Positions 18,097-23,149 of a stretch of 37,264 bases of DNA are shown here, one piece after another; the stretch's first letter is position 1; every line of letters begins with the position of its first letter. A program made the translations under genes and the position numbers. This stretch comes from a candidate division WWE3 bacterium GW2011_GWC2_41_23 (GTDB lineage: Bacteria; Patescibacteriota; WWE3; UBA101185; UBA10185): positions 66,542 to 103,805 of the forward strand of contig LCBB01000001.1 in NCBI GenBank assembly GCA_000996895.1, given 5' to 3'. The notes below the pieces were generated by a model. The model saw only the letters and a program-made list of their open reading frames with translations, was not told the origin of the DNA and ran no database searches.

Positions 18097-19563
18097 ATGT
18101 TCAGCATGTTTAACGTAATCAACAACCTTATCAAGCTGAAAGGCAACCTATACGTAACTGACCTCTTCGATATTGTCATCATTGCCCTTTTGATTTATTC
18201 TTTATTCCTCTTTCTCCGGAATACCAGAACGCTTATGGTATTTTTGGGTTTGGCTATTGCAGCCGCGTTATATATTTTCGCAAAAAGTTTTAATCTCTAC
18301 GTAACACTTTTGGCGTTAAGATACTTTGTCGGCGTGTCGGTATTAATCTTCGTGATTATTTTCCAAAACGAGATTAGAAAGTACTTTGAGTTTCTAGGTC
18401 TTATCGGGTCAAGACAATTAAAAGTCTTGCCTTTAACCTCAAGGTCTCCTGTTACCTCGGAGATTATCCAGGCATGCGTCAGGATGGCTCAATTAAAGAT
18501 CGGTGTGCTGATAGTTATACAAGGCAAAGATAGTTTGGATCAACACATTGACGGCGGCGTAGCTTTGGATGGCGTGATATCAGAAGAATTACTTTCAAGT
18601 ATTTTTGAACCTCGTTCCTACGGACACGATGGTGCTGTAATAATTAATAACAACCGCGTATCAAAATTTGCGACTCACCTTCCTCTTTCTACAAATTTTA
18701 AGGAAATTGGAAAACACGGAACGAGGCACAGCGCTGCGGTGGGAATCACAGAAATAACGGATGCCTTTTGTATCGTAGTTTCTGAAGAAACCGGAAAGAT
18801 TTCAGTGGCAAAGGACGGAAAAATGAAAACTCTGCAGGAATTCACGGATCTGGAAAAGGAGTTTGAGAAGTACATTAAAGCGAAATTTCCCAAAAATACC
18901 AAAGAAAACAAGCTAAGTAGAATAATCAAGCAGGATTTTTTGTTAAGGCTCGGGTCTATGGTAGCCGCTGGAGTAATCTGGTTTTTTGCTGCTTACCAAG
19001 CCGGTATTGTTGAAAAAACCTATAACGTTCCTCTCGACACTTTAAAAATTCCTAAAAATATGGTTATTCAGGAATACAGCCCTAAAGACGTGAAAATAAG
19101 AGTGTCTACCCGAGGAGAAGATTCATTTAAGGATGTCTCTTCTAAAGATTTTAAAATCAATCTGGATTTCTCCGGTCTTCAAAGCGGTGTAAATAAACTA
19201 CAAATTACAAAAAATCTTATTACGGGCCCTTCGAATTTTTCTATTACTTCATTTGAACCAACTACAATATTACTAACCGCCCAAAAATATTATTTAACCG
19301 AGGTACCTATTTCAGTAAAAACAGCCGGAACTTTAAAAAATAAACTTGTTTTAAAATCGGCTGAAGCAGAGCCTAAATCTATTAAGGTGTGGATTCCGGA
19401 AAATGCCACTGCTCCCGTCGAAATTGCTACTGAACCTCTTAGTTTGGCAGACAAAAGTGAGTCAACGGTGTTGCCTGTTACATTGCAACTACCTGAAGGA
19501 CTACGTTTAGAGGATGAAACTATAAGTATCAGCGTGGCACTTACAATTGAGACTAATAAATGA
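18097..19563 (+). CDS. cdaA: Diadenylate cyclase CdaA fused to a YbbR (CdaR-like) domain
   Basis: This 488-residue membrane protein should make c-di-AMP from two ATP. Three membrane helices (about 22-95) are followed by a DAC domain (about 100-265) with the active-site motif DGA (178-180) and GTRHS (208-212), then SEETG (229-233). The usual RHR motif reads RHS here. A further membrane helix (about 283-300) leads to an extracytoplasmic region of about 185 residues with two YbbR-like repeats (about 305-395 and 396-488). In Firmicutes cdaA and its regulator ybbR/cdaR are separate neighbouring genes; here they are one polypeptide. It converges with the rRNA methyltransferase gene, 3 nt apart. Confidence 0.88.
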   Translation: MFSMFNVINNLIKLKGNLYVTDLFDIVIIALLIYSLFLFLRNTRTLMVFLGLAIAAALYIFAKSFNLYVTLLALRYFVGVSVLIFVIIFQNEIRKYFEFLGLIGSRQLKVLPLTSRSPVTSEIIQACVRMAQLKIGVLIVIQGKDSLDQHIDGGVALDGVISEELLSSIFEPRSYGHDGAVIINNNRVSKFATHLPLSTNFKEIGKHGTRHSAAVGITEITDAFCIVVSEETGKISVAKDGKMKTLQEFTDLEKEFEKYIKAKFPKNTKENKLSRIIKQDFLLRLGSMVAAGVIWFFAAYQAGIVEKTYNVPLDTLKIPKNMVIQEYSPKDVKIRVSTRGEDSFKDVSSKDFKINLDFSGLQSGVNKLQITKNLITGPSNFSITSFEPTTILLTAQKYYLTEVPISVKTAGTLKNKLVLKSAEAEPKSIKVWIPENATAPVEIATEPLSLADKSESTVLPVTLQLPEGLRLEDETISISVALTIETNK

Positions 19564-21051: not shown

Positions 21052-21912
21052 ATGAAAAAAAGAGGCATTTATGTTTTGACGTGTATTTTTTTGCTGTTAG
21101 TGTTCTTCGACATTAAATTGGGAGTTCCCATTGCTCTTGAATTTATATATGGGACACCCGTGTCGATAGAACGTTCCGTTTCGGCAGGGTCATTGGAAAA
21201 CACGGCGACACCCACACCGTTTCAACCGGTCTGGAATACTCCCGTGCCTACCATTGCGGAAGTTGTAATACAACCTACGCTAACCTTGCCGACCCCAACG
21301 CCTGAAATACAACCTGAACCGTCCTTACCCGAAAATCCTTACGATGTCGGGAATGTACTGTTCGACGAGTCCGACACCATAGAAATATGGTTCTACCCGG
21401 TTTCAGACGATCCGTTTCCTGTAACATTTGTTCCTATTATTCCTGTAGATGGCCCCGACACATATAAGCCCGGGATCCATAAAGCAGGCGTATGGGCAGA
21501 TGACTTCGGGAACATCAGTATCAATCCCCACTCAGGTTGTTTTAAGTACTCCAAAGAATACATCGAGTTAGAAGGAGAATACTTAAGACGGTTTCTTGAG
21601 GGAGGGAAATGCAACGATGTGCGGACTAATTACTCCGATGAGCAGATGAGCGCGCAAGTCGAAGAATTGAAAAAAGCACCCGTTGTTATGTCTCAAAACG
21701 GCAATTCTGTGAACTTAAGTGTAATAGCGGGCGGGGTAATTAAGAATGAAAACCTCGACTCAGTAAAATCGCTTAACCCCATAGAACTTGCCGCACTAAT
21801 CGGCGTGACCTTGGACGGTAGTGACAGAAGTATTGTCATTATTACCAGCGGAAGGAATTTATCCCATAACCCCTGGTACTCTGCGGAACGCCTAATCATA
21901 GTCCTTCAATAA
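21052..21912 (+). CDS. Sortase-like extracellular protein lacking the catalytic Cys
   Basis: This 286-residue protein has an N-terminal signal anchor (about 5-30). A Thr/Pro-rich linker (about 50-95) leads to a C-terminal domain of about 190 residues that follows the sortase plan. HKAGVWADDFGNISINPHSG supplies a His (H160) in the usual place, ELEGEYLRRFLEGG follows, and the end reads IVIITSGRNLSHNPWYSAERLIIVL. There sortases have a TLxTC strand and a later Arg (R280). The Cys position is Ser266 (codon AGC at 21847; one base change from TGC). It is thus either a non-catalytic sortase relative, a Ser variant, or a mutated copy. It is cotranscribed with a Thr/Pro-rich surface protein 13 nt downstream. 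Confidence 0.5.
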   Translation: MKKRGIYVLTCIFLLLVFFDIKLGVPIALEFIYGTPVSIERSVSAGSLENTATPTPFQPVWNTPVPTIAEVVIQPTLTLPTPTPEIQPEPSLPENPYDVGNVLFDESDTIEIWFYPVSDDPFPVTFVPIIPVDGPDTYKPGIHKAGVWADDFGNISINPHSGCFKYSKEYIELEGEYLRRFLEGGKCNDVRTNYSDEQMSAQVEELKKAPVVMSQNGNSVNLSVIAGGVIKNENLDSVKSLNPIELAALIGVTLDGSDRSIVIITSGRNLSHNPWYSAERLIIVLQ

Positions 21913-21925
21913 GGAGGAACTTAAA

Positions 21926-22651
21926 ATGAAGACGATCGTAGTAATAGTGCTTTTCGTTATAGCCGCTTTCTCGGTATTCTCGGTACCCGCCGCGGCAACA
22001 CCTGCCAGCGGAGATTCGGGCCTACCGCGCGAAGGCTGGCATGTGGATTCTTATCTAGGATACGGTTCGGTTCCTGGACAATCCGGAAGTTTTCACAGAT
22101 TTGAACTTAAGGCAAATAATTTTGCGGTCCGCGCCTACTGTGTGGAACCTCTCAAAGAAAACCCGCCGATAGGAATTTCCTGTTCTTATATCGCGGGCAT
22201 AAATAGGTTCTGGTGCGGAGATACTTACCAGGAGTTGGTTCCTTACGAAATTCTTGAAACTCCGGTGCCTACACCTACCTCAACCAACACACCGACAGAA
22301 ACCCCGACATCAACACCAACGAGTACACCAACCGAAACTCCGACATCAACACCTACTGAGATGCCAACAGCAACACCGACGGGAACTACTCCCCCTACGG
22401 AAGTACCTCCAACAGAGGTGCCGCCTACGGAAATCCCGCCCACCAACACACCGGTACCGCCGAACACACCAACAGCTCGTCCGCCCCAACCAACCGGAAC
22501 AGCTCCAGTTGTACCTACAAGTGGGAATGGTGTGTCTCTCCCTCTTGCACTCGCCCAAAGCTACTGTTTCGAAATATCGTGGGGCTTTGGTTTAGGGCTT
22601 GTTTGTCTCTTCATCTTTTACGCGGGTATGAAGAAATATTTTAACCGCTAA
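21926..22651 (+). CDS. Thr/Pro-rich surface protein with signal peptide and C-terminal anchor
   Basis: This 241-residue protein has a cleavable signal peptide (about 1-24, AAA-T site). A small globular part (about 25-108) has three Cys. A Thr/Pro-repeat stalk follows (about 112-192, many TPT and PTE units). The segment VPTSGNG leads to a membrane helix (about 215-234) and a basic end KKYFNR. VPTSG looks like a variant LPxTG sorting motif, but the helix begins about 15-20 residues later than usual, so plain membrane anchoring is also possible. Shine-Dalgarno AAGGAGG precedes the ATG. Together with the upstream sortase-like gene it forms a surface-protein operon. Confidence 0.7.
   Translation: MKTIVVIVLFVIAAFSVFSVPAAATPASGDSGLPREGWHVDSYLGYGSVPGQSGSFHRFELKANNFAVRAYCVEPLKENPPIGISCSYIAGINRFWCGDTYQELVPYEILETPVPTPTSTNTPTETPTSTPTSTPTETPTSTPTEMPTATPTGTTPPTEVPPTEVPPTEIPPTNTPVPPNTPTARPPQPTGTAPVVPTSGNGVSLPLALAQSYCFEISWGFGLGLVCLFIFYAGMKKYFNR
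22265..22475 (+). repeat. Tandem Thr/Pro codon repeats in the surface-protein gene
   Basis: Short degenerate repeats built on ACACCNACN and CCNACNGAN encode the stalk (TPTETPTSTPTS and PPTEVPPTEVPPTEIPP). Three near-identical PPTE(V/I) units lie at about 22392-22440. Such tracts change length easily. Confidence 0.7.
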
Positions 22652-22670: not shown

Positions 22671-22720
22671 AAAGGGTAATCTTGAAGCCAGAAATTTTGG
22701 TCTCAGGGTTACCCTTTTTT
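22671..22720 (+). terminator. Terminator of the surface operon
   Basis: AAGGGTAA pairs with TTACCCTT (about 22672-22679 with 22709-22716) and T residues follow. Confidence 0.85.
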
Positions 22721-22801: not shown

Positions 22802-23149
22802 ATGAGTATGCCCGGTGTGGTTGTGATACGGGTTCGCCAAGATTCTGCGAATTTCCTCTACAGAGAATATTTTGTAGATTCAAAAATTTCATTAAGACCG
22901 CACAAAATTTTTTTTGTCCCTGTTACGGACGCTTATCAGGAAAGTGTCGCAAATGAGATCGGAAAAATCGGGGCGGAATTAATAAGGTTACTTGGCAGAA
23001 TCGACGGTTTAGATTTTATCTACCTTACTAATGAATCCGTAGGAATATCAAAACAAAGGGGTAAGGATTGGAGAAAAATTGAAAAAGAAATTTTTATTGA
23101 CATCCAGTCAGTGTTGAACGGCAACAGTTACGTAATTAGGAAATGGTAG
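22802..23149 (+). CDS. Stand-alone Nfu/NifU N-terminal-domain-like protein
   Basis: This 115-residue protein matches the Nfu N-terminal domain in its C-terminal half. GAELIRLLGRIDGLDFIYLTNESVGISKQRGKDWRKIEKEI corresponds to the family pattern in which a Phe/Ile-rich strand is followed by I-V-K and D-W (W91). The iron-sulfur CxxC domain of Nfu is absent. The domain is known in iron-sulfur scaffold proteins, but its stand-alone role is not clear. Shine-Dalgarno AAAAGGAGGAG precedes the ATG. It is a single-gene unit with its own promoter and terminator. Confidence 0.6.
   Translation: MSMPGVVVIRVRQDSANFLYREYFVDSKISLRPHKIFFVPVTDAYQESVANEIGKIGAELIRLLGRIDGLDFIYLTNESVGISKQRGKDWRKIEKEIFIDIQSVLNGNSYVIRKW

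Follow-up and report, generated by a model that had tools for sequence, protein, structure and literature searches.

A sortase homologue with a conserved serine at the catalytic-cysteine position, encoded beside a VPTSG stalk protein in WWE3 bacteria

Sortases are described as cysteine transpeptidases that operate through a thioacyl intermediate (PMC5148588), and the locus described here raises the question of what a protein of this kind might do when serine stands where the catalytic cysteine is expected. The window, by which we mean the whole stretch of 37,264 nucleotides analysed, belongs to a WWE3 genome of 837 kb in 18 contigs, with RAAC2_WWE3_1 and other WWE3 genomes as its closest named kin. 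From the letters alone, an open reading frame at 21052-21912 had been proposed to encode a sortase-like protein in which AGC (Ser), a single base away from TGC, takes the place of the catalytic cysteine codon. The frame opens with ATG, the C-terminal end of its product is ...RSIVIITSGRNLSHNPWYSAERLIIVLQ, and it carries the following features:

21052-21912, + strand: Ser-site sortase homologue of 286 amino acids, with an N-terminal membrane helix, a Thr/Pro linker and a C-terminal predicted sortase-fold domain
21058-21150, + strand: N-terminal helix, residues 3-33, presumed signal anchor (DSSP of the model; hydrophobic by eye)
21334-21909, + strand: predicted sortase-fold domain, residues 95-286 (VIA-align rows cover model residues 92-286)
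21529-21531, + strand: His160 (CAC), catalytic-His position, within the invariant NPHSGC
21538-21540, + strand: Cys163, invariant in the Ser lineage and lacking in the Cys paralogues
21610-21612, + strand: Cys187, second and last Cys of the ectodomain, kept throughout the Ser lineage and presumably disulfide-bonded to Cys163
21847-21849, + strand: Ser266 (AGC), catalytic-Cys position, at the end of strand 261-266 (paralogues TGC/TGT)
21889-21891, + strand: Arg280, at the position of the catalytic Arg, where the last strand begins

As both the catalytic Cys and a Pfam match are missing, we refer to the product as a Ser-site sortase homologue and do not name it a sortase.

The AlphaFold2 model of this protein, built on an alignment of nine sequences (the five Ser orthologues and four Cys paralogues described below, no canonical sortase), reached a pLDDT of 70 overall, with means per ten residues of 55-94 across residues 91-286, and predicts that the product adopts a sortase beta-barrel fold. 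The fold had been set beforehand as a point on which the sortase relationship might be refuted, and here the models side with the original prediction. All 42 Foldseek matches in the PDB at E<=0.001 are sortases; the superpositions are loose (TM 0.23-0.34 by query and rmsd 5.9-9.3 among the matches listed), as expected for a remote relative. The second-best of them, the C232S form of Clostridium perfringens sortase B (PDB 5yfk), likewise has a sortase fold and Ser where the catalytic Cys belongs, but it is an engineered mutant, whereas the Ser described here is natural and conserved. VIA-align also gave sortases in 50 of 50 cases among the matches listed (Z 9.2-7.6), the best Z being 9.2, with an rmsd of 4.4-5.3 over 146 residues; the scores of sortase classes B, E, C and A differ by about one Z unit at most, and neither class D nor class E, against which an alignment had been suggested, stands out. 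In the secondary structure of the model His160 directly follows strand 155-159 and Arg280 opens strand 280-285. The last residues aligned by VIA-align pair model residue 286 with 203 of 1t2o and with 335 of 5cuw, which would place Arg280 on Arg197 of Staphylococcus aureus SrtA (1t2o) and on Arg329 of Streptomyces coelicolor SrtE1 (5cuw), provided that no gap falls in the last strand (residue numbers after PMC5148588). In SrtE1, as in the model, the catalytic residue ends its strand, with Cys320 located at the end of beta7 and Arg329 within beta8 (PMC5148588). A separate model of the Cys paralogue, made from its own four sequences, is weaker than that of the Ser-site protein (pLDDT 62); at E<=0.001 Foldseek nevertheless pairs it with sortases in 16 of 16 cases, and by the same end-offset reckoning its Arg would coincide with Arg329 of SrtE1.

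The Ser homologue shares with sortases of classes A-F (PF04203) a predicted beta-barrel with His after beta4, the nucleophile position ending beta7 and Arg starting beta8, as well as a presumed N-terminal membrane anchor and a surface protein next door whose putative C-terminal signal resembles LPXTG. Unlike them, it has Ser for Cys, two extra Cys, VPTSG as the putative signal of its partner and a sequence that the Pfam model misses; its HSG motif leads into an LExExLR...E helix, and a long insert precedes the last strands.

Orthologues with Ser were found in 5 of the 27 genomes of the family, namely in the window genome, in three others of the same WWE3 genus and in KA30 of another genus; these five species from two genera represent all Ser sequences known. 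The aligned catalytic codon is AGC in all five, which come from separate assemblies, so that the predicted replacement of the catalytic Cys by Ser at this codon holds throughout the lineage; this agreement takes the place of the read-level check of base 21847 that had been suggested. His160, Ser266 and Arg280 are unchanged in every orthologue, down to the 45% domain identity of the KA30 sequence. Domain dN/dS within the Ser lineage ranges from 0.16 to 0.24 wherever dS is finite (seven of ten pairs; dS is saturated in the remaining three, all of which involve KA30), and from 0.14 to 0.26 in six of six pairs of Cys paralogues. This similarity indicates that the Ser-site gene is not decaying and is under ordinary constraint. 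As a control we used the 93 Pfam sortase matches in the same 27 genomes, all of them above the cut-off, for which the reading frames with fewest stops were preferred and a Cys-containing pattern served as tie-breaker only. The catalytic columns hold Cys in 93/93, Arg in 93/93 and His in 92/93 of these sortases, the remaining one being gapped at His; the 64 control regions that were not clean (pattern unmet or an internal stop) likewise have Cys. Thr265-Ser266 aligns with the invariant Thr-Cys of the canonical sortases. Since Cys is present in every control, Ser at this position is no habit of sortases in these bacteria.

The window genome also encodes a paralogue with an intact Cys (Cys246, locus L011 at C7:19456-20271), and the remaining three genomes of the genus carry one as well (L023, L024 and L025); the searches showed no Cys paralogue in KA30. 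More distant Cys relatives occur in other Patescibacteria (L033, L129 and L130, and by eye also L131 and L139, whose HSG and later Cys were recognized by eye and which were left out of alignment and tree). HSG is common to 12/12 aligned sequences of this wider family, whose shared features are GN...HSG and the LExExLR..E helix. The Cys paralogue family (L011 and L023-L025, with the relatives L033, L129 and L130) resembles the Ser homologue in GN...HSG, in LEAE-LR--FE, in the Arg of the last strand (in all but L129), and in its neighbours, i.e. a Thr/Pro stalk protein next to 4/4 paralogues, a proline-rich protein by L033 and a fragment of a stalk protein by L129. It differs in keeping Cys, in the partner motif EPSLGG and in lacking the Cys163/Cys187 pair, and three of the four paralogues are lipoprotein-like, unlike the Ser homologue. 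L129 and L139 keep the Cys and have no Arg at the expected place, which indicates that the active site is not rigid across the wider family. Both are large proteins (L129 616-2934 and L139 688-2886; 772 and 732 aa), in which the HSG...Cys domain is followed by a similar C-terminal region. In L033, from a distant Patescibacterium, the proline-rich surface protein and the Cys sortase homologue (179-1273 and 1408-2157) have the same two-gene layout.

In a tree of 12 rows, some on long branches, the Ser sequences form one group with a single change (support 91/94). Taken with the Cys of all 93 canonical sortases, this suggests that Cys is ancestral, and the sequences fit a single derived change from Cys to Ser. 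The phylum search covered 379 genomes of 313 genera, and a repeat of equal size gave the same leading matches; no relatives were found in viral contigs. Weak matches at L027, L034, L035 and L132-L136 were left out of the family set, and others were dropped and inspected, with no sortase domain seen in L010, L026, L029 and L036, and an ordinary Cys sortase in L146.

The gene downstream of the Ser homologue begins 13 bases past its stop codon. It had been described as an operon partner with a Thr/Pro stalk and a VPTSG segment before its membrane helix; stalk, segment and a hydrophobic C-terminal stretch are all seen, and the motif, in the form V[P/A]TSGxG, is conserved in 5/5 genomes. The features of this part are:

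21926-22651, + strand: secreted operon partner with a small domain containing three invariant Cys, a Thr/Pro stalk, VPTSG, and a hydrophobic C-terminal stretch with a basic tail
22511-22531, + strand: VPTSGNG motif of the partner (VPTSG itself at 22511-22525)
22580-22627, + strand: hydrophobic stretch near the C-terminus of the partner, ahead of MKKYFNR (by eye)
22671-22717, + strand: strong hairpin and T run 3' of the partner gene, likely the operon terminator

In all five genomes a stalk partner with V[P/A]TSGxG lies directly downstream of the Ser gene; V-x-T-S-G-x-G is invariant and Pro is present in 4/5. About 18 residues separate the motif from the hydrophobic stretch in the window's partner, and exact VPTSGxG occurs at one site in the 837-kb genome, that in the partner (reversed control pattern, 0 sites). 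The Cys paralogues are accompanied by a different stalk protein, with EPSLGG before the C-terminal stretch in 4/4, in two-gene modules (L011 631-2289, L023 656-2328, L024 1498-3162 and L025 1486-3174) whose sortase homologue is unseen by Pfam. The Ser and the Cys versions therefore each appear to have a motif of their own. The hairpin after the partner gene folds at -27.1 kcal/mol as RNA (z -6.06, 0/200 shuffles as good) and is absent from the list of a short-loop terminator scan, and the search for an operon promoter gave consensus matches only, near shuffle expectation. In KA30 the operon includes a third, overlapping gene (L009 2955-3302, the same as L015) for a lipoprotein-like protein with an IAGC lipobox by eye, which has VPTSGYG near its C-terminus and no membrane helix after it.

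VPTSG can be read as a signal of the LPXTG type in which Val replaces Leu and Ser replaces Thr. A look for other sortases and LPxTG-type proteins in the genome, which had been suggested as a check, turned up both: four ordinary Cys sortases lie above the Pfam cut-off, and LPATG and VPETG were seen by eye in neighbours of two of them. The motif also resembles the VPDSG-CTERM signal of exosortase systems (exosortase / VPDSG-CTERM, PEP-CTERM). Unlike an exosortase the Ser homologue is not polytopic, and PF09721 had no match at E<=1 in the window genome (2/14 control genomes match), on which ground we reject an exosortase as the processor of VPTSG.

The explanation that we tentatively favour, at slightly less than an even chance, is that of a dedicated, membrane-anchored sortase homologue that handles the VPTSG partner, in which Cys was replaced once by Ser, Ser was then kept, and Ser266 is catalytic. 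Here the sortase-fold domain would bind the VPTSG signal of the partner, with Arg280 holding the peptide and His160 acting as general base; Ser266 would attack the carbonyl of the Ser in VPTSG to give an acyl-enzyme ester (not a thioester), and the ester would be handed to an amine or to water, so that the partner's stalk might be fixed or released at the surface. We infer the binding of VPTSG, the role of Ser266 as nucleophile, the acceptor and the Cys163-Cys187 disulfide. The stronger form of this idea, that the lineage represents a natural serine sortase which stayed active when its defining Cys gave way to Ser, and which has its own VPTSG signal (with Ser in the Thr position at the cleavage site) and a new disulfide close to the active site, is possible, but we would lean against it. 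A search for reports of a natural Ser sortase in the open-licence literature found none, which is weak evidence of absence.

Catalysis by Ser266 is nearly tied with a non-catalytic role, in which the protein would have lost its chemistry and become a pseudo-sortase, a dedicated receptor or chaperone that docks the VPTSG of its partner and perhaps presents it to an ordinary sortase; we regard this as quite possible as well, if somewhat more doubtful. The cysteine nucleophile is gone, and putting Ser for Cys severely impairs S. aureus SrtA, whose C184S form is reported to have dramatically lowered activity (earlier work cited in PMC4827206). The four Cys sortases of the same genome could provide the chemistry, and the VPTSGYG without a membrane helix in KA30 would suit a docking motif. 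Pseudoenzymes often retain a conserved binding groove, and the conservation of His, Ser and Arg may in part be due to peptide binding and not to chemistry. However, Ser is present in 5/5 orthologues with His and Arg kept and with dN/dS as in the Cys paralogues, and a pure binder would have no obvious need for the His. It is the choice of Ser specifically, the retention of His and Arg, and a constraint equal to that of the intact-Cys paralogues that lead us to favour the reading as a serine enzyme.

A further peculiarity of the Ser lineage concerns its cysteines. Outside the N-terminal helix, each of the five Ser proteins contains two Cys and no more, namely Cys163, within NPHSGC, and Cys187. 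In the four Cys paralogues the catalytic Cys is the sole one outside the N-terminal region. From this pattern, the loss of the nucleophilic thiol was probably accompanied by the gain of a Cys163-Cys187 disulfide near the active site; were the protein indeed a natural serine sortase, the free thiol of a catalytic Cys might have interfered with the new disulfide. It is also conceivable, but unlikely, that the nucleophile was relocated and that Cys163, three residues past the His and within the His loop NPHSGC, or Cys187 took over, in which case the protein would still be a cysteine enzyme. As such a takeover would have it, both residues occur in all five Ser proteins and in none of the four Cys paralogues; yet the presence of exactly two Cys in a presumed extracytoplasmic domain fits a disulfide better, and Cys163 is away from the beta7 end, the site of the sortase nucleophile.

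At the sequence level the kinship to sortases is difficult to detect. The Ser-site protein matches no Pfam family at E<=1 and no NCBIfam model, and misses the cut-off of PF04203 that four other genes of the same genome pass. A sequence search of the PDB gave no credible match (best E 1.3), and the same search with the family profile gave zero matches. Compared by hhalign with 20 of the 93 canonical sortases, the Ser family reaches a probability of 4% (E 0.01), not significant by probability, with the Ser lined up with the Cys; the Cys family (6%) and both families combined (2.5%) are not significant either. A match is found, however, between the Ser and the Cys subfamily (probability 87%, E 4e-6). 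These missing sequence matches, the weak hhalign score and the high Foldseek rmsd would suit a beta protein without any sortase kinship whose IITS...R ending is due to chance, but we consider this very unlikely, as sortases alone make up the 42 best PDB matches and all 16 of the Cys-paralogue model, and His, Ser/Cys and Arg stand in the right order and in the right secondary structure. That the true codon is TGC and the serine a sequencing or assembly error has a negligible probability, for even though AGC is one base from TGC, it is found at the aligned position in separate assemblies of five species.

A Ser lineage under purifying selection with an intact-Cys paralogue in the same cell represents a clean natural experiment. 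Those sortases in which replacement of the Cys was tested are crippled by it. A sortase working with Ser, if this is what the protein is, would matter to the study of enzyme evolution and to peptide ligation, and in the alternative outcome a sortase would have turned into a docking protein for a surface stalk. As this sortase-like family is invisible to the standard models, the surface-anchoring systems of Patescibacteria may be undercounted.

Two further genes of the window lie on either side of the operon. Downstream, at 22802-23149, a small open reading frame of 115 aa has a weak Pfam match, below the cut-off, to an Nfu/NifU N-terminal domain (E 0.0016), and similar small proteins are located at the same place in the relatives. 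Upstream, at 18097-19563, Pfam identifies a CdaA-type diadenylate cyclase domain (DAC) and a YbbR domain in one protein.
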